Source: Adineta ricciae (Eukaryota; Rotifera; Eurotatoria; Adinetida; Adinetidae). Taken from it: a stretch of 64,000 bases of DNA. This document shows positions 38,638 to 48,580 of this stretch, piece by piece. Below the pieces are notes generated by a model. It had not been told where the DNA came from and did no database searches. It saw only the letters and a list, made by a program, of their open reading frames with translations. Every line of letters begins with the position of its first letter. Within the stretch, counting starts at the first letter, position 1. The stretch is taken from the NCBI GenBank assembly GCA_905250025.1, contig CAJNOJ010000096.1, positions 297,739 to 361,738 of the forward strand, read 5' to 3'. Both the position numbers and the translations under genes were made by a program.

Positions 38638-40671
38638 CTAATCTTTATTTCCTGAGTCATACAAAATTTGATCTATTTTCATTGTCATTAAAAACTCGTC
38701 GGAACACGTAGATGAACGAGATTTAACTACAGGTTGCAGTATTGTGTCGTGTGCTGTTGTTTCAGAAAGAAGATTGTTAGCTCTACTCCAATTAACATGG
38801 AATTCTGGTACACAAATATACTTTTTAGAAAGATTCAATGCATTCTCATGATGTCTATACGATTTTTGATAGTTTCCATAGTCGAATTCAAGCAAACCTA
38901 GGTTGTTATGTACTATTGCTTTTTCCAGTGGATGTCCATGTTCTTTTAACGATTGTTCAAACGAACTACGAGCATTTCTACAATCACCGTTCTTGTAATA
39001 CAATAAGCCTAAACTGTTCCAGATACGTAAACGCGTGGGTCGTATATTATGATGGTATATTAGATCATTCAGGGTTTTCGAATTCACATCTTTTTCTGAT
39101 TCACTGGAAATAAGTTCTACTGCTAGTCTAAAGCTTTTCAGCGCGTCACTGTATCTACCCTGTTCAGCTGCTAATGTCCCAATGTTATAATATATATGTC
39201 CGCGAATTTCACCTGAAAGATCGGGTCTATCGAGCATACGATAGTAATGATTCTCAGCATTGATTTTATCGCCCAGTTCTCGTAACACGTTTCCTAGTGA
39301 CAGAAATGTGGGACCATTCGTCAGACGTTGGTCGATCTCTTCGAGTTCAGTGTCGATCTGATCGCAGAAGGTAAGTTTGACTTCCCGAACGGGGCCATCT
39401 ATGACGTCATCAATTTTCCACACAGAACCAACAGAAAAAAGAATTTCTCTTTCCTGTGGATGTTTACTTTCATTTGTAATATCGGCGTATTTCATCTTTG
39501 TCTTTGTCGTACTGTCAATTGTCATCGTAAACATAACACTTTCATATCCAGGAATGTCCGTATCTGCACCAGTATAATCCGCACTGACTATGCAGCTTTT
39601 CGACGTCGAAAGGAAGCTATTAATGGATATTAAACTCCCACGGCTATCATTCAACTGCTGCAATACAGCAGTCGGTAGTTTTTTGCCATGAAAAACCAAC
39701 TTTTCCGTCAACGAAGTACTTGATTTTTCCACATATGTAGTCAACCGTTGGTCCAGATGAGATATGTAATAACGACATGTGAAAATTCGATTAAAATCTT
39801 CGGATCGAAGTGCCTGGTTGATCAGAGAATAGAGAAATTGATGTTCGGTGTAATATTTCACCGTGTGATTAACATCGTAGTTTGCTTGGAACTTATCGAT
39901 CGATTTTAATTGAGTGGGATATGACTTGTATTCGTTCCGAAAGTAACTGCACATTTCGTCCAGAGCGGACGCATCATGTTCCATCTCAAAGAGAATTTGA
40001 TAAATTAAACGAAAGAGAACGAATCTCAAGCAGTTCTTGTTTAAAAACTGACACCAGACTTGTTTATTAGTTAGATTAAATAGTTCAAATGCAGGAAACA
40101 GATCAAGTATGGTATCAGCAGCATCGTTCGGTACTTGATAACCAAAATCCGTGTCTTTGAGTACTTGCGTTAAATCCGTGTAAACATGTTTATATAAATC
40201 ATCTATATTATTGCATACTGTCCAACCTTCTGTGCCACTGGGCACACCATCAGTGTCTAACTTTAATTCATAGATGTAACTGTCTTTGAATCGCTGTTGT
40301 GCTGTAACAAAACTACATAAATTCTCAGCGTCTTCGCCGGAACTGATAAAGAAAATTTTCTCTAGACTTGTATGAGATAGAAACTCTGTTACTTCGTCCC
40401 TTTCCGTGTAAGTCTGCAGACGAAGAAATGTTTCGTTCAGGTTAAACTGTAAATCATCACGTAGGTCTTTCGAAATACTCTTATTATAAAACCATACACA
40501 CTGACACTGCTGATTTTTCAGCGGCACTCTCGGTTGTGATCTGATACTAAAAGTAGATGAGATGATGTTCGTACAAAAAAAATTGAATGAAAAATACTTG
40601 ACAAACGATTGAAATGTAGACATCGCTTCATGCAATTGTCGGACGTGAGTGCGTTCTTCTTGCGGTGACAT
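38638..40671 (-). CDS. ART-TPR protein: receiver-like N-domain, ADP-ribosyltransferase domain with Arg-to-His in NAD site, TPR repeats
   Basis: Exons 40598-40671 and 38638-40546 (51-bp intron GTATTT...TTTTAG) encode 660 residues. The N-domain (residues about 25-130) has a beta/alpha pattern (CQCVWFYNKSI, LEKIFFISSGEDAENL, YIYELKLD) shared with the other two ART genes here. The ART domain keeps the Ser motif SINSFLSTS and ExE (QEREILFSVGSVWKI), but the first catalytic Arg is His: KLVFHGKKL where the paralogue at 46528 has HVYRGQMM. The His codon CAT (39688-39690, read on the minus strand) is one transition from CGT. C-terminal TPRs follow (FLSLGNVLRELGDKINAENH, YYNIGTLAAEQGRYSDALKS, WNSLGLLYYKNGDCRNARSS, HNNLGLLEFDYGNYQKSY). 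The R-S-E class modifies arginine using NAD+; with H-S-E, activity is uncertain. No signal peptide, so cytosolic. Confidence 0.85.
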   Translation of the reverse strand: MSPQEERTHVRQLHEAMSTFQSFVKYFSFNFFCTNIISSTFSIRSQPRVPLKNQQCQCVWFYNKSISKDLRDDLQFNLNETFLRLQTYTERDEVTEFLSHTSLEKIFFISSGEDAENLCSFVTAQQRFKDSYIYELKLDTDGVPSGTEGWTVCNNIDDLYKHVYTDLTQVLKDTDFGYQVPNDAADTILDLFPAFELFNLTNKQVWCQFLNKNCLRFVLFRLIYQILFEMEHDASALDEMCSYFRNEYKSYPTQLKSIDKFQANYDVNHTVKYYTEHQFLYSLINQALRSEDFNRIFTCRYYISHLDQRLTTYVEKSSTSLTEKLVFHGKKLPTAVLQQLNDSRGSLISINSFLSTSKSCIVSADYTGADTDIPGYESVMFTMTIDSTTKTKMKYADITNESKHPQEREILFSVGSVWKIDDVIDGPVREVKLTFCDQIDTELEEIDQRLTNGPTFLSLGNVLRELGDKINAENHYYRMLDRPDLSGEIRGHIYYNIGTLAAEQGRYSDALKSFRLAVELISSESEKDVNSKTLNDLIYHHNIRPTRLRIWNSLGLLYYKNGDCRNARSSFEQSLKEHGHPLEKAIVHNNLGLLEFDYGNYQKSYRHHENALNLSKKYICVPEFHVNWSRANNLLSETTAHDTILQPVVKSRSSTCSDEFLMTMKIDQILYDSGNKD

Positions 40672-40793
40672 GTTGAAGTTTTGACTATCTGAAGAAGATA
40701 AACTGGTGAAATTTTACAGATCAATGTATTAGTTTACTGTTGTTAGGTTAATAAATCAATTTTTATATATTTCGAAAAAAAAAAAACATTGGA

Positions 40794-42659
40794 TTACTCC
40801 TTAGTTTCGAGTTCATCGAGCACCTTCCAGTAGTCCTCGATCGTTGACATGTCCAGATGCTTACGAGTCTCGAAATAAAGTTGATCCTTGAAAGGTTGTA
40901 TATTGTAATTATTATATTCGATTTTGATGTGCCAGATAAGATCACATGTTTGCTTAATTGAATTCAATCGGAATATAGTGCCGAGAGGAAAAATAAAAAC
41001 ATCTGGATGTGATGGACTTTGCGTGATTGTTGTTCCTTTAGTTAGCTGTATTTCCCATAGGGCCGCATCGAGACCGTTGTCAACTGCTCTGCGACATAGT
41101 TGGACTGCAGATGAATAAGATCTTGATGCTGTAAGACAAGCGTAGAATTGTAGAAAGCAATTATAATTTTTACGAATCATATTCATGTCTGTGTTAGATG
41201 TGAGTTGAGTAACATAAACTGTAATCGACGAACGTATTTGATTTGATGACAAAGGTTCGAGGGTGTTGTAAATGTATGATAGCTCAGATTTCAACTTGTG
41301 AAAATAGTGGATTCTTTGAGCAAGTTCGGTGTTAATATATTCAGGCACGTTTGAATCTGTATTTGTCGAAGGCAATAAACGGGATAATACATCAATGACC
41401 AGTTGAGAACGAATAAATTCTTTGTCACTTGGAATCAGATGCGCGAGAACTTCCGAATCAGCTCGAAGTGCATCCATTTTCACAGTATTGGCAAGAGTTT
41501 GACGATAGAAACAGATATCATTCGTAAGTTGTACGAGAAGCTCCCTATGTGAAACAAATACTCCACTTACTTTCGAGCTTTCATACAATGAGCCAATGTT
41601 CTGCATGTCTCGCCATTGCCCACAAGCAAAGATGTATGTAGCATGTACCGACTGATGATTTACCAATTGTAGGACATGTGGTAAATCCGTAGTACAGTCA
41701 ATACATATAACTAAGAAGACTGACGATATGTCATATTTATCAACAAACTCGGTACATTGATGCACATTGTTAAATACACGAAATTGCGCGTTCTCATGAG
41801 AAAAATGGAATTTTTCGTGATCGTGACTGTTACAGTATAGCGTAACAATGTTAGGGATGTTATAACATTTTTCATCTTGACCGACTGGAAGTGATGTAAT
41901 ATGATAGGACAGAGTTTGCGGCCTTAAGTTGCTTAACAAGTTCGGCGATCTTGTCCATCGCGAGCATTTGGTCATGAGATGCTCTATATCTTGTTTCAAC
42001 TGTTGTTGAATTGCATCTGTAGACGGCCAAGAATCGACAATTTTGCTGTAACTGTCCATCCAAAGCGAATTTCGACTGACGTTTTGAGCATCATGTATAT
42101 AAATACGTTCGATATTCACACAGGAATGAACTAATGGTAGAACGATTCTTCCTCTACTAGCAGATATAACGAAATAGATCAGTTTCTTTTCTTCGGTATT
42201 TTTGTTGATTGATAGTAATCGAGAAGTACATTTCAGGTCGTCGGTAAACAGTTCGACGTTAATACGCACATCATTGATCGGTTGTTTAAGTGACAAACTT
42301 ACATCTAGACAGATAATGGATATATCTATATTTCGTTTTAACTTGATAGTTTCTTCACTTGTAACTAAAGAGTCAATGATGATAATAATCATGATTAATT
42401 AGAATCTTACTTGAGTCGGTGATAGGTTGTGTGTCATTGATAAGTGTAAGACCACTAAGATCGGCGCAGTAAGAGCATACTGAATGAACTGAGATTCTAT
42501 TGGTACGACTCTCATCCTAAAACGTGTGGGACAGCGTACAAAACTGATGGAGCGTCGTTTTGTATACATTACTTTCAGCACTTGAACGTGTTCTGCCGGC
42601 GAAAATAATGATACGTCGTGTTCCATATAATCATTGGTCGATGCTTCGACAGTGCAGCT
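40794..42659 (-). CDS. Pseudo-ADP-ribosyltransferase module with two receiver-like domains; probably the cytoplasmic half of the upstream receptor gene
   Basis: The main exon is 40794-42364, preceded by small exons 42411-42516 and 42573-42659 joined by 46- and 56-bp canonical introns. Two tandem copies of the beta/alpha N-domain are visible (IYFVISASRGRIVLPLVHS...ERIYIHDA and VFLVICIDCTTDLPHVLQ...TYIFACG), then an ART-like fold. It aligns to the active paralogue at 46528 over TVYVTQLTSN, FYACLTASRSYSSAVQLC and FIFPLGTIFRLNSI, but Arg is Val (codon at 41211-41213), STS is LTAS, and ExE is gone (DVFIF). No TPRs follow; the frame ends LDELETKE. A catalytically dead ADP-ribosyl or NAD-site sensor is likely. 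As a separate gene it could start at ATG 42624-42626; otherwise it continues from the receptor frame (see the linking feature). Confidence 0.7.
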
Positions 42660-42845
42660 CTAAAGAATAAATTATTCATAGTTATAAAAGATAACATTAC
42701 ATTTACTTCGATAGATTGCAGCAGTGGTGGTATTTCTGAGGTGTCCGAAATTGATTCCTAACGAAACACATCTCGCAAGACCATCAAAGATTTCACAATC
42801 AAAAAGAAAACATACCATACTTGAATACGTGTTGTATGGAATGCT
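42365..42845 (-). other. Splice chain linking the glutamate receptor frame to the pseudo-ART frame
   Basis: Seen directly on the minus strand: donor after codon SSM at 42816; intron 42758-42815 (58 bp, GTATGT...GTTAG); exon 42707-42757 (17 codons, ESISDTSEIPPLLQSIE); intron 42660-42706 (47 bp, GTAAAT...CTTTAG); exon 42573-42659 (29 codons, starts SCTVEASTNDY); intron 42517-42572 (56 bp, GTAATG...TTTTAG); exon 42411-42516 (35 codons plus 1 base); intron 42365-42410 (46 bp, GTAAGA...CTTTAG); then the pseudo-ART exon. Phases 0,0,0,1 agree throughout and no stop occurs. Without splicing, the receptor frame stops at 42672 and the linker codes nothing coherent. Confidence 0.6.
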
Positions 42846-45509
42846 ATTCGTTGTTGGAGTGTTTATAGTACCTGAAAATATGTTATTAATTAAGACAAGA
42901 AAGAGAAACAATGGGCGACTATTAAAAGAAGACACTGGCAGTCTAAAGTTATGACTTATGCTCATATGATTATACGTACTTCTTCTATTATTTAATGAAT
43001 AACGGTGTCGTTTGTTTGATTCAGATAGCAACACGAAAAATATAAGCGACGAAAAAATCATGGTGCATCCAGTCATGAATATTGTTATGATTACAGAGTT
43101 AATCCATGATTTTGCATTTCTGTCATACGAATTTGACGGATAATTTGTTACAAACCATTTGTTTTTCAATCCATCAAGTATACCTAATTTTTTCAAAGAT
43201 GCTAGACTGACACTTAGATCTTGTTCGTATAGCCATCCTTTTGGATAAACAATACCAAATGCACTGTGATCAAAAGCTGGTCCAGCGAGTGTCAGATTAC
43301 GATAGAGCGTGTTTGTTGAGTATTCTAAAACTCCCGAATCCATAATAGCCGCATCGATTGTATTGCTCAATAACTTGTTATACATATCGTCCTTTGATTG
43401 CAGTGGATAAAAATTATGATTTCCTCCGGAAATTTCTCGTAAATAATAGTCTTCGATAGATGAATTGGCAATAATACCCACACGATCCGATGAAATTTTA
43501 CCTTTTTTGATGTCATCTATGCCAGATATCAGAACTTCAGATTTTGGAGTGGCCAACTCAACTATTAATCTAGCAGTGAAGCATGCAAACGAAATAATAC
43601 TTAACATGTAAAGGAAACAAGTGATTAAGGAACTAATAGATCTCGCAATAGGTTCGTAACGGGTATTGATTTTCAATGGAGAATCAATGTATGGGAAAAT
43701 CCAGCCTTTTCCCTCAAAAACGTTCAATAGCATAGTAGTCAATATCAACAGTCCAACGTAGCATAATGTTCTTTGTGCCCACGTGAGTAATGACGTGCTT
43801 GAAGAAGAACGTAAATAACTACTCGATGAGTTTCTGATAATGACACGTAACGAACCATCGTATATTGAACTCGAGAATGCGATTCTCTTCTGTCGTGTTG
43901 CGATAATGGTAATATCACCCACGATCATATCATACGTATTATTCGCCACCGCTTCTATCAGCTCATCGTAAGTTCGATTGGACGATAGCACAGTAGTATT
44001 CGATTTAAATTTCATTTGTTTCTGCAAATGGTCAATAAGATCGGGTGCATAGCCACTTAATTTAGTCTTCTTTCCTCCGTGTTCATCTTTTGTTTCTTCT
44101 ATAATTGTCAAAGGAGGTATTTCAATGACAGCAATTCGCAGAGTTGCATTGGTCGCAAGCGCATAACCTATAGGTGCAACCAACGACCTTCCTGGCCATA
44201 TTATTGTGTTTAATTCTGTATGCGATACCCAATTATTCGTCTCCGACCAAACCAATACCGGCACATAGTTCAAACCGTTCGAAAAACTTTGAATATTTTT
44301 CGCAATGTAGTAGCTACCGTTGACCCGATCGGTTAGATTAGCCTTGAATTCTACAGGGCCAGATACTCCAAGAAAAGTAGTGTTATTTATGATGTCAAAC
44401 AACAAATCAGCACTGAGGAAACGTCGATGGAAGCATAAAGGAGTTTCCAAGAATGACGTACACGATGCATTTTTTAGACAAAGTTCTCTCAACGACAGAA
44501 TCAGTGACCAAGTTGCGTCGAATGAAAACAGTGCGTAGTAATTTACATTACCTGGTCCGGGAAACGTTTCAGGTTCATATTGCTGCCAAATGGCATACGC
44601 TTCGCGTAATAACGTCGCATTAAATGGAGCATTGATAACATTCCCTACAACCGGTTCTATCGTAAACATTCCAGTCAATCGATCGTAAACTGATGAATTG
44701 AAAATATTCAATGGGATATTGGAGCCCAGAATCCATGTAAAGCGTGGACCTAGAACATCACAATCAAGCGCTTGTTGTAAAACCAAAGCTGCATAGTTTT
44801 CCTCAACCCACAAGATGACAATTCGCGTTGATCTGCTATTTAGAAGAGTTTTCAAATCGTCGCCAATTGTGCGAGTGACAATATCAAAGATGATCATTCC
44901 AGTGACGTTTAGACCATGCCTGTCAAATGTTTCACTTATCGACTTCGCTCCACCGGATCCGAATGCGTCGTTCTGATAGATAATTGTGCATGAAGTCCAA
45001 TTGTATTTGAGAAACAATTTTGTAATCGCTAAGGCAGCTGCATTATCCGAAGGAACCGTGCGATAGAAACTTCGATATATCTGTCGATCCGACAGATCAG
45101 GATCAGTAGCAGCATGAGATATCATGGGAATATCGAGTTTTTCAGCGAAAGGAGCAATATAATGTGACTCGCGGGAAAACGTTGGTCCGACAATTCCGAT
45201 AATATTCGACGAAGATGTTAGTAAACATGTTTTGCTCAGAGTATTTGCGACATTCTCTTCGCTGTCCATCACTTGCCAGCCCAAGAATTGTCCGCCGATC
45301 GTTATGTTATATCGATGAGAAAGTAAGATTGCTGATATGAACATGGCACGAGACTGAAGAGATCTTAGGATTAGTTCTGTTGTGCTCACCTTACTACAGA
45401 ATGTGCCAAGTATTTGCACTTTAGAAGAATTCATCGAAGGCCAAATGGCGCCGATATACACCGCATGGAAAGTCCCGACGAAGACGTATATCCAGAACCT
45501 TGTAAACAT
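42672..45509 (-). CDS. Ionotropic glutamate receptor-like channel with long Venus-flytrap ectodomain
   Basis: The membrane-receptor frame covers 945 codons to the unspliced stop, or 898 codons up to the donor at 42816 in the fused model. A signal peptide (MFTRFWIYVFVGTFHAVY) leads an ANF/GABA-B-like amino-terminal domain (IIGIVGPTFSRESHYIAPFA, IPMISHAATDPDLSDR, CTIIYQNDAFG) to about residue 440. The ligand-binding halves follow: S1 with LSGYAPDLIDHLQ and DITIIATRQKRIAFSS (Arg that binds the amino-acid carboxylate), and S2 with AAIMDSGVLEYSTN (acidic residue for the amino group). TM1 is LCYVGLLILTTMLLNVFEG, TM3 FLYMLSIISFACFTARLIVE, TM4 VIITIFMTGCTMIFSSLIFF. The conserved SYTANLAAF of TM3 is changed to CFTARLIVE and no recognisable Q/R-site pore loop is seen. 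Bdelloid iGluRs are known to be divergent (AvGluR1 of Adineta). Confidence 0.87.
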   Translation of the reverse strand: MFTRFWIYVFVGTFHAVYIGAIWPSMNSSKVQILGTFCSKVSTTELILRSLQSRAMFISAILLSHRYNITIGGQFLGWQVMDSEENVANTLSKTCLLTSSSNIIGIVGPTFSRESHYIAPFAEKLDIPMISHAATDPDLSDRQIYRSFYRTVPSDNAAALAITKLFLKYNWTSCTIIYQNDAFGSGGAKSISETFDRHGLNVTGMIIFDIVTRTIGDDLKTLLNSRSTRIVILWVEENYAALVLQQALDCDVLGPRFTWILGSNIPLNIFNSSVYDRLTGMFTIEPVVGNVINAPFNATLLREAYAIWQQYEPETFPGPGNVNYYALFSFDATWSLILSLRELCLKNASCTSFLETPLCFHRRFLSADLLFDIINNTTFLGVSGPVEFKANLTDRVNGSYYIAKNIQSFSNGLNYVPVLVWSETNNWVSHTELNTIIWPGRSLVAPIGYALATNATLRIAVIEIPPLTIIEETKDEHGGKKTKLSGYAPDLIDHLQKQMKFKSNTTVLSSNRTYDELIEAVANNTYDMIVGDITIIATRQKRIAFSSSIYDGSLRVIIRNSSSSYLRSSSSTSLLTWAQRTLCYVGLLILTTMLLNVFEGKGWIFPYIDSPLKINTRYEPIARSISSLITCFLYMLSIISFACFTARLIVELATPKSEVLISGIDDIKKGKISSDRVGIIANSSIEDYYLREISGGNHNFYPLQSKDDMYNKLLSNTIDAAIMDSGVLEYSTNTLYRNLTLAGPAFDHSAFGIVYPKGWLYEQDLSVSLASLKKLGILDGLKNKWFVTNYPSNSYDRNAKSWINSVIITIFMTGCTMIFSSLIFFVLLSESNKRHRYSLNNRRSTYNHMSISHNFRLPVSSFNSRPLFLFLVLINNIFSGTINTPTTNSIPYNTYSSMVCFLFDCEIFDGLARCVSLGINFGHLRNTTTAAIYRSKCNVIFYNYE

Positions 45510-46527
45510 TCGCGTTGACGTTTTAAATGCTTATTCGCATTCAATTTAGGAATAATCTAAAAATAACAAAATCAATATGGATCCACACATCACCAGGCTC
45601 ACAACACGTTAAATATTGAACGTTCGATCCTCGTTAACAGAAATTTCAAAATACTATATCGACGCTTGCTTGTTGTATATACCCCTCTGTTTTTTTAATT
45701 CATATATTAATGAATATATTCATACCTAATTAAAGTCTATTAATGGTGCATAGAGTCATAGGTAGCAATAGACGCAGAAACGAAAAAGTAATTGCTACTA
45801 AAATACGATATATGTCTCTTTTTTGTCTCCTCTGCGCGAAATTACCTAACCAACAAAAAAGAAACCTACTCGTTCTTCTCTTCCTCTTTTCATGTTGAAA
45901 ATTTGACTCTGATGATCGTTAGATAGCTTTTTCTACCTGTATCTTGGTTTTTTTCATTTTCTTATTAATCGATAGCAGATATCCAAAGTGTATTCCGTAT
46001 GAGATAAATCAAACAAATATGACGACGAAAACATAGTTTGGACCTCTCATTGAAAATAATAAAATCTTTATCAAGGGAATTGATTCGCGTTTTGCATTGT
46101 GTTTCACACTTCAGTTGGCAATCGATGTAACTTGGATATAACTGCGAACAAAGTTCTCAACTGTTCTTGTACAGTACTGACTATTTGCGAGAACTTTTTG
46201 TTTACTTAGATTATATGAAGGAGTCGTGTATCTTCAATTCACGCATTTCTCAGCCAAATCTGTTTATTTGAATCTCGATATGGTAAATGCGTCATAAGAT
46301 CAACCATGCATTTCCTATCCATAATCACTGTAATCTTTTCATGGATAGGTAAGACAGCTTATAATTACCAGTCGTCGTAAAAAAGCACGTGTTTTTATCT
46401 CTCACTTAACTCGCATGCATGTGTTAGCTGAGAAAAATAAGCGTACAATATACGAGTATTTGTATGTTTCTTCTAATCGTCCGTTTCATCCATATAGTGC
46501 TCAATACAGGAAAACGTCAAAATATCG
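45510..46527. other. Divergent intergenic region between receptor and ART-TPR gene
   Basis: About 1 kb, AT-rich, with no supported coding sequence or RNA gene. It should hold the promoters of both the minus-strand receptor gene and the plus-strand ART-TPR gene. Confidence 0.45.
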
Positions 46528-48580
46528 ATGGAGAACATAAATAATGTAGTTTCTGTGGCAACTGATGAGAATTTGGAAACATTTTCTCTCGCCTGGCTCG
46601 ATGAAGAAGTCGATTCAACAGAAGAGAACAAACAAATTCAGCAACAGCTTCAACAAATCATCAATCATCTCAAAACATTTCATGATCGACAGCAATGTCA
46701 TGATTATATTACTTCACTTTTCCCACACGATCGACTTGTTCTCATCGTCAGTAGCCGGTGCGGTCAAGAACTAGTTCCTCAAATTCATTCGCTTCGACAA
46801 GTCTCTGCAATTTACGTTTATTTTATAGATGGACAGGCAAACGAGCAATGGACAAAGCGCTTTATCAAGGTACAACATACATCTCGTTTACTTGTCAAAA
46901 TTATTCTTGTCTGACATTTTCTAGGTGCAAAAAGTGGCTACACAAGTCAAAGATTTAATCGATCACATCAAAACGAATCAGAACAACCAAACAAAAGCAG
47001 ACGAACCACTTTCAATCAACATCTTCAATTCAACTGGTACGTCCGATCAGTCCACAACTGAAATCAATGGTCATTTTCTTCATTCACTTCTTCTCATCGA
47101 TGTTCTTCTTCGAATCAAACCAAATGACAAAGATAAACATCAGCTCATCACACTTTGCAGAGAGCACTTCCATGTCAATGACCATGAACTCGGTCTTGTA
47201 CGTGAATTCGAGCAAGAATATTCAAGTGACAAGGCACTGTGGTGGTATACGCGTCAATCGTTTGTGTACAAAATGGTGAACAAGGCACTGCGAGTACAAA
47301 ACGTTGAAGTTCTGTTTTTATTTCGTTTTATGATCAACGACATTTATCAGCAACTGAAGCGGCATCAATGTACATCAGCGGTTCATGTTTATCGAGGTCA
47401 GATGATGTCACGTGATGAATTAGAAATTATACAACGAGCCGATGGTAAACTTATATCGATCAACTCGTTTTTCTCAACTAGTCTTAATCGACAGAAAGCA
47501 TCAGCATTTCTCCATAGGTCGAGTGATTTACATCGTGTGCTGTTTGATATTCATGCTGATCCAGGCGTAGTGATGTCAAAACCATTTGCTGAAATTCAAA
47601 AATTAAGTATTTCTATGTACGAAGAAGAGGTATTGTTCATGACCGGATGCATCTTTCGCCTAAATAAGATTTGGCGAGATGACGACAAAAACATGTGGGT
47701 GATTGAAATGCAACTATGCGGTGACAGTGAACATGGTTTGAAAGCACTGTTTGATTACAATAAGGAGGAGTATGGAGGTGGTGATGGTGAAGTCGATCTT
47801 CGTTCTTTTGGTGTCGTGTTGCGTATGATGGGAAAGATTGTGTTAGCAGCGAAGATGTTGCAGCGTCATCTGAATGAACTTCCACCAAATGATCCATCAC
47901 TTCAACGTGTATACTGGTCATTTGGTATGATCATGAAGAAGAAGGGTGATTATGACGCTAGTCTAATATTGTTCAAGAAATCATTGGAAATCTATTTGAA
48001 AACCAACTCATCTGATTATGTCATCATAGGTGCTTTGTATAATTGCATTGGCACGGCGAATTGGAAAAAGAAAGATAATGAAAGAGCATTGGAATATTAT
48101 AAGAAAGCAATCGCACTGTTTGAGGAAGCACACGCTGCGGATCATTCACACATGGCTGTTTTCTACGACAACATTGGTATAACCTATAAGGATCAGAAGA
48201 AGTATTCGGAAGCTCTCGATTGCTATAAAAAGTCATTAGATATAAAAAAGAAATGTCTACCAGATGAGCATTCACGCATGGCCAAATCATATAATAATAT
48301 AGGATGTGTGTATTCTGACCTCAGACAATATGACCTTGCGATGGAGCAGTTTACTCTAGCACTCAAGATTCAGAAGCAATCCCTACCTCGTGAACATCTA
48401 GATATCGCCAAGAGCTACAACAGCATCGGTGTAATACATGAGAAGAAGGGTGAATGGCGAGAAGCACTGGCTAACTATGAAACGGTTGCCAAAATCTATC
48501 GTAGTTCGTTATCACCTCAACATCCATATGTGATCGAAGTCAACGAAGACATTCGACGTGTGTCATCAAAACTAAAATGA
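46528..48580 (+). CDS. ART-TPR protein: mono-ADP-ribosyltransferase (R-S-E intact) with TPR repeats
   Basis: Exons 46528-46869 and 46925-48580, with a 55-bp GTACAA...TTCTAG intron, encode 665 residues. The N-domain (residues about 15-115) contains RLVLIVSSRCGQELVPQIHS and AIYVYFIDGQ, a beta/alpha repeat shared with the two minus-strand ART genes. The ART domain keeps all three catalytic motifs of arginine-specific transferases: HVYRGQMM (Arg), ISINSFFSTSLNR (Ser-Thr-Ser), MYEEEVLFMTGCIFRLN (ExE). About six kinesin-light-chain-like TPRs follow (ALYNCIGTANWKKKDNERAL, VFYDNIGITYKDQKKYSEAL, SYNNIGCVYSDLRQYDLAM, SYNSIGVIHEKKGEWREAL). No signal peptide, so a cytosolic enzyme with a protein-docking tail is inferred. 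Target unknown. Confidence 0.88.

Follow-up and report, generated by a model that had tools for sequence, protein, structure and literature searches.

Can an ionotropic glutamate receptor (iGluR) lose its ion pore and yet be maintained as a receptor, by passing its signal to a protein module joined to its cytoplasmic end? The question is raised by a locus of the bdelloid rotifer Adineta ricciae, on the minus strand of a 64,000-nucleotide stretch of contig C96 (C96:297739-361738, hereafter the window), where an iGluR gene is followed by a frame related to ADP-ribosyltransferases (ARTs). The original prediction for this DNA was a glutamate-receptor channel fused to a pseudo-ART that would sense nicotinamide adenine dinucleotide (NAD) or ADP-ribose. 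The genome searched here comprises 130 Mb in 1,033 contigs, and contains a second copy of the locus on contig C79. The DNA of the two copies is 94.4% identical, and this divergence of 5.6% is near the median of 4.55% that the accessible part of PMC5916493 gives for homologous copies in A. ricciae. The most far-reaching interpretation, to which we give a probability of about 0.4, is that an ion channel has turned into a single-chain non-conducting receptor, with an ectodomain under selection, that would signal to its pseudo-ART and perhaps to an ART protein with tetratricopeptide repeats (TPRs). It would then be one case of a bdelloid pseudo-ART/ART cassette placed on various sensors (an iGluR here, NHL repeats on contigs C381 and C481).

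That the first part of the locus belongs to the iGluR family was borne out by Pfam (ANF_receptor 4.7e-42, SBP_bac_3 4.5e-14, Lig_chan-Glu_bd 3e-9) and by the best PDB sequence match, which is the ligand-binding domain (LBD) of AvGluR1 (4io2, E 1.8e-66). The Pfam search of the receptor gave no match to Lig_chan, PF00060. An amino-terminal (ANF) domain and a bilobed S1/S2 LBD were both found, as in iGluRs of the AvGluR group. In an AlphaFold model of the receptor (51 sequences, pLDDT 76.8), the amino-terminal domain (ATD) is mostly at pLDDT 80-97, and it is followed by M1 (571-599), a coil (600-619), M3 (620-653) and the fourth transmembrane segment, TM4 (796-839). A protein search with the receptor gave 168 matches, 120 of which were listed; three of those are this gene itself (P0001-P0003) and the 117 others were compared. 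The window receptor retains R539, T534, S683 and D724 (positions by alignment), which by other iGluRs we take to be the expected ligand positions (Arg, Thr/Ser, acidic). Among the listed matches R539 is kept in 117/117, and T534 and D724 in 116/117.

The pore region is quite different. Counted from the glutamate that closes M1 to the alanine in the gate motif of M3, the window receptor has 47 residues, versus 60-63 in 117/117 listed matches (61 in 109 of them). A receptor search of the genome itself gave 53 match rows, from which 20 long open paralogues were taken, after sequences that were partial or interrupted by stops had been set aside; the same interval measures 60-61 residues in all 20, and 47 in the window and C79 copies only. 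About 14 residues of pore loop and filter are missing, and no re-entrant loop with a selectivity filter is left. This deletion is not an intron, because the frame is contiguous across it, and three hydrophobic segments are still present. In the listed matches, all full length, the filter triplet is GYG in 87/117, GFG in 8/117, absent in 7 and something else in 15, where the search pattern may have picked up a site other than the filter. The SYTAN-type gate motif of iGluR M3 segments is also lacking: the window receptor reads ACFTARL, and the listed matches have Y at 644 in 115/117 and N at 647 in 96/117. A separate receptor pair of the genome, L046/L047 on contig C286, has an altered filter, CTIxGFGxEF, and may be another case in which the pore has changed or is under relaxed constraint.

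Synonymous and nonsynonymous differences were then compared between the C96 and C79 copies. The ATD has 18 synonymous and 11 nonsynonymous differences (dN/dS 0.18, P = 8e-6 for purifying selection), and S2 has 8/6 (0.20, P = 0.0045). The TM1-P-M3 region counts 2/14 (dN/dS 2.1), which differs from the ectodomain (Fisher P = 0.0017), and TM4 counts 1/5 (1.5). Five other near-allelic receptor pairs, 93.9-96.4% identical, were taken as controls: their TM1-P-M3 counts are 9/0, 8/1, 13/2, 7/5 and 2/6, four pairs being constrained (dN/dS 0-0.20), and the window pair departs from the five pooled (39/14, Fisher P = 1.8e-5). The ectodomain is constrained and TM1-P-M3 is not, and therefore ligand binding appears to have been retained and the pore released. 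We are highly confident that this receptor has lost its ion pore. The label of ion channel, and the ion entry envisaged in the original prediction, are not supported, because the pore loop and filter are missing and the pore region evolves without constraint.

Is this receptor read into the module that follows? The splice arithmetic proposed earlier was reproduced on the minus strand: five exons (2694, 51, 87, 106 and 1571 nt) form a frame of 4,509 nt and 1,502 residues with a single stop, and the four introns (58, 47, 56 and 46 bp) are all GT-AG. All borders of the proposed exon list are present, but the list had counted as coding an in-frame candidate intron of 108 bp (42979-42872). The latter corresponds to residues 844-880, and its 7 substitutions between C96 and C79 would all be nonsynonymous if coding, with 0 synonymous. 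In the C79 copy the borders of the four introns are intact and the frame is open up to its sole, terminal stop; the receptor read-through stop is also the same. No indel separates the copies from 43017 to 42365; the junction has 0 indels versus 39 substitutions, a weak contrast with the 5' flank (4 versus 85). An open frame with usable introns, as a fusion would have, is therefore found in both copies. In neither copy does the receptor frame meet a stop upstream of 42672, which lies beyond the strong donor, and the 20/20 paralogues examined stop 14-61 residues past TM4.

The fusion is already present in databases as a predicted model, and hence is not new there. The NCBI automatic model P0001 (A. 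ricciae, unnamed protein), on the C79 copy, is the same 1,502-aa fusion (91% identity, 100% coverage), and all four linker junctions (M|ES, E|SC, K|D and S|IT) are found again in two partial models on other contigs, P0002 and P0003. The pseudo-ART stop terminates P0001 and P0003; P0002 (1,847 aa, partial) continues into the ART-TPR gene. As far as the accessible text of Nowell et al. 2021 (PMC7943196) goes, gene models of A. ricciae were built with BRAKER on RNA-seq alignments, and P0001 presumably belongs to that gene set. Among the other listed receptor models, P0085 (Rotaria sp. Silwood2) has a partial protein kinase at its C-end and P0097 (A. ricciae) the start of a GH38 gene; both are probably annotation chimaeras.

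Chance joins were estimated on dinucleotide shuffles (300 per run) and on 57 real paralogue 3' regions (20 regions in 3 frame offsets, 3 with unread bases dropped). When introns were limited to 40-70 bp and to GTR...YAG borders, the frames could be joined in 0/300 and 2/300 shuffles (two runs) and in 0/57 paralogue regions. With introns up to 120 bp, the counts rose to 57/300 and 9/57, and up to 250 bp to 260/300 and 39/57; any GT-AG of 40-70 bp gave a join in 132/300 shuffles. The join is unusual solely under tight limits on intron size and borders, because looser limits make joins common. Poly(A) hexamers do not decide where the receptor gene ends: AATAAA or ATTAAA lies at most 250 nt from the stop in 16/20 paralogues and the junction has just one ATTAAA, at 42996, altered in C79, but both hexamers are absent within 400 nt after the pseudo-ART and ART-TPR stops alike. 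The linker exons align weakly with exons of a relative on contig C408, and this was not counted as proof. The proposed fusion keeps its open frame in both copies and is matched by an automatic model on the C79 copy; the single protein made of receptor and pseudo-ART remains a prediction, to which we give even odds.

The second part of the locus is, judging from profile comparison, a catalytically dead ART relative, in agreement with what had been proposed. The profile of the pseudo-ART family matched the bdelloid ART-TPR profile in hhalign (99.3%, E 2.7e-20, 420 columns). ARTs of the R-S-E class are marked by R, S-T-S and E-x-E catalytic motifs, and all three are lost in the pseudo-ART, which reads VYVTQL, YACLTAS and HPDVFIF at the aligned places. 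The suggested sensing of NAD or ADP-ribose is not borne out; the catalytic and NAD-binding motif positions are gone. Pfam ART gave no match in the pseudo-ART exon. Two alpha/beta domains and one rich in beta strands are seen in a structure model of low confidence (pLDDT 59.7), and a Foldseek search with this model gave 23 matches at E <= 0.001, comprising 13 ART folds, 7 PleD-type regulators (among them rank 1, a PleD response regulator) and 3 lethal factor structures. Between the C96 and C79 copies, the first alpha/beta domain counts 13 synonymous and 25 nonsynonymous differences (dN/dS 0.51), the second 13/16 (0.31) and the ART-like end 9.5/29.5 (0.87, not significant).

Proteins of this kind were recognized elsewhere in the genome, on contigs C79, C408, C381, C481 and C122, among the inspected minority of the 35 rows of a pseudo-ART search; of the other rows inspected, L018, L024 and L026 look like ordinary ART genes, and L021 and L025 have no frame on the strand read. 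Upstream partners differ, being the receptor here, an NHL-repeat-like frame (by eye) on C381 and C481, a serine-rich exon on C408 and a 297-aa frame on C122. Downstream, C408 has an ART-TPR gene (Pfam ART 2.7e-7) on the same strand, C381 and C481 (L015 and L016) have an ART-type frame cut by the end of the sequence taken there, and on C122 (L032) the pseudo-ART frame continues into an apparent ART-TPR N-terminus (by eye). Further on, the L032 frame crosses unread bases and repeats an upstream stretch, perhaps as a result of an assembly misjoin. On C381 and C481, the pseudo-ART frame lacks a Met upstream of its first conserved strand, and in both alleles an intron of 120 bp or one of 105 bp could connect the NHL-like frame to it. 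A search for a stand-alone relative with a 576-aa query gave 0 matches at E <= 1e-3 among 4,770 candidates, its length filter excluding P0001-P0003. A query from C408 matched P0121, which is partial at its 5' end, and P0122, whose frame of 645 aa lies on a contig of 2,101 bp and may represent exon 5 alone. The arrangement on C381 and C481 suggests that pseudo-ART modules are as a rule translated downstream of another domain.

We propose the following working. A bdelloid AvGluR-type receptor gene that has lost its pore would continue, most likely within a single transcript, into a catalytically dead ART module, and its product would be a membrane sensor that conducts no ions. When an amino acid closes the ligand-binding clamshell, the movement would be relayed via M3 and TM4 to the cytoplasmic pseudo-ART. 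The latter would serve for binding or as a scaffold, not for catalysis, and may act together with the adjoining ART-TPR protein. If TM4 were spliced out instead, the module would be extracellular.

Several observations weigh against this proposal. On the receptor side, the nonsynonymous deficit of S1 taken alone is not significant (5/6, dN/dS 0.36, P = 0.095), the pore region of the fifth control pair, L047/L046, is also unconstrained (2/6, dN/dS 1.23), and the divergence of TM4 and of the tail fits decay of a 3' end too. At the junction, the receptor tail shows no purifying selection as a protein (1/12), and neither do linker exons 3 and 4 (1/6 and 0/5, i.e. 1 synonymous and 11 nonsynonymous differences), exon 2 (3/2) giving the only hint of constraint at this level; the coding potential of the linker exons has no clear signal either way. 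Among the models, P0002 and P0003 remove TM4 by splicing, so that the pseudo-ART would lie outside the cell, and automatic fusion models need caution because 2 of the other 117 listed ones (P0085 and P0097) contain pieces of unrelated genes. As for the module, its profile compared with PDB sequences gave 28 matches, mostly TPR proteins, with 0 ART. Finally, joins of the NHL type are not rare by chance (9/57 controls at introns up to 120 bp), and for this reason the join on C381 and C481 is suggestive and no proof.

Some of these points, the unconstrained receptor tail first, would also be expected of two tandem genes, an arrangement that is tentative in our view and a serious contender. The pseudo-ART mRNA would begin at acceptor 42872, through spliced-leader trans-splicing or a cis first intron, and be translated from ATG 42818 over exons 2-5 into a 605-aa cytosolic protein; the receptor would be made on its own as a membrane protein lacking a pore, and would terminate through read-through to 42672 or after a different splice. 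Acceptor 42872 is good, by eye the best-looking of the region, and it is followed by a 53-nt leader free of ATG before the first ATG, 42818, in frame and in good context. Compact neighbours lie on the same strand, and leader trans-splicing is common in bdelloids, where one leader is added to more than 50% of transcripts according to the part of PMC1925144 available. The original prediction had placed this alternative start at ATG 42626 behind acceptor 42660, which is disfavoured because an out-of-frame ATG at 42634 comes first; acceptor 42872 with ATG 42818 is better. However, the receptor would then run without a stop into intron 2, as far as 42672, and its coding frame would contain the pseudo-ART leader, in both copies, when all paralogues examined stop soon after TM4. 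The lack of a Met before the first conserved strand on C381 and C481 also argues against a separate pseudo-ART gene, with the reserve that a short first exon may be present elsewhere.

An unlikely alternative is a longer single gene, in which receptor, pseudo-ART and ART-TPR frames would form a protein of about 2,080 residues, tying the sensor to TPRs and to an ART domain whose active-site Arg has become His. P0002 joins all three parts, an intron at 40864-40689 (GTAAGC...TTCTTCAG) connects the frames, the C122 frame runs on into an ART-TPR-like N-terminus (by eye), and the order of a pseudo-ART then an ART-type frame recurs on C408, C381 and C481. Nevertheless, two of the three models (P0001 and P0003) go no further than the pseudo-ART stop, a codon that both copies retain; the ART-TPR frame has an acceptor followed by a Met of its own, and the C122 frame crosses unread bases downstream. 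It is very improbable that the receptor is a decaying pseudogene beside a normal pseudo-ART gene, the join being a gene-finder artefact: the pore deletion and the unconstrained transmembrane, tail and linker parts would fit, but the ATD and S2 are under purifying selection (P = 8e-6 and 0.0045) and no inner stop or frameshift is found across 1,502 codons in either copy.

Features of the predicted receptor/pseudo-ART locus and the gene that follows it (positions in the window).
Feature	Positions	Strand	Basis
Receptor exon (signal/ATD aa 1-450, LBD S1 451-576, M1, M3, LBD S2 656-797, TM4, tail; 898 aa up to donor)	42816..45509	-	frame, Pfam, PDB profile match, model
M1 (aa 571-599), pore-loop deletion site, M3 (aa 620-653); pore helix and filter absent	43551..43799	-	residue counts, model coil 600-619
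Candidate fifth intron, 108 bp, in frame, GTACGT...TTTCAG; acceptor alternatively for a separate downstream gene	42872..42979	-	sequence; kept in C79
Alternative start ATG of a stand-alone 605-aa pseudo-ART protein (after splicing A at -3, G at +4)	42816..42818	-	first ATG past acceptor 42872, in frame
Intron 1, 58 bp	42758..42815	-	kept in both copies
Linker exon 2, 51 bp	42707..42757	-	3 synonymous / 2 nonsynonymous between copies
Intron 2, 47 bp, contains receptor read-through stop 42672-42674	42660..42706	-	kept in both copies
Linker exon 3, 87 bp	42573..42659	-	splice frame
Intron 3, 56 bp	42517..42572	-	kept in both copies
Linker exon 4, 106 bp; aligns weakly with upstream exon of the C408 relative	42411..42516	-	splice frame
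Intron 4, 46 bp	42365..42410	-	kept in both copies
Predicted pseudo-ART exon (two Rossmann-like alpha/beta domains, then an ART-like domain lacking R-S-E residues)	40794..42364	-	profile comparison, low-confidence model
Next gene, ART-TPR type	38638..40713	-	Pfam TPR; ART by homology; joined in P0002

The locus has ART-TPR genes on both sides. In the next gene downstream, Pfam finds TPRs only, and the ART domain was recognized by homology to L031:3569-5383 (34%, 431 columns); the Arg of its R-S-E motifs is replaced by His (VFHGKKL) in both copies, with STS and ExE kept. On the opposite strand, just upstream of the receptor, a gene at 46498-48580 (+) encodes an ART (ADPrib_exo_Tox 2.7e-9) with kinesin-light-chain-type TPRs.

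How does this predicted protein compare with known systems? AvGluR1 of Adineta vaga belongs to the same bdelloid receptor family, its LBD 4io2 being the best PDB match. It retains a K+-channel filter signature (Janovjak et al. 2011, as cited in the accessible part of PMC12332018), whereas the window receptor has neither filter nor pore helix, and has an ART-like module behind it. To bdelloid ART-TPR proteins (PF01129 or PF03496 with TPRs, e.g. window 46925-48580 and L031:3569-5386), the pseudo-ART appears homologous over the 420 columns mentioned above, but the R, STS and ExE positions of these proteins are all lost in it. Our literature search, thin in its coverage of subscription journals, yielded no report of an iGluR joined to an ART, nor any on ART proteins of bdelloids. 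If pseudo-ART/ART cassettes do recur behind various sensors, this would be a sign that bdelloids have an ADP-ribose-related system, as yet undescribed, for signalling or for an immune-like role. Among iGluRs at large, GluD keeps its pore segment, and to our knowledge vertebrate iGluRs keep their pore. Flux-independent signalling has been reported for GluD, AMPA, kainate and NMDA receptors in the accessible sections of PMC11048239, and ligand-driven signalling without ion flow is the mode proposed here too. For those receptors the same sections mention no deleted pore loop and no fused enzyme-like domain; here the former is seen and the latter predicted. The extent to which iGluRs signal without ion flow is debated in vertebrates, and a natural receptor with ligand binding kept and its pore deleted, if the present reading is true, would test it directly.

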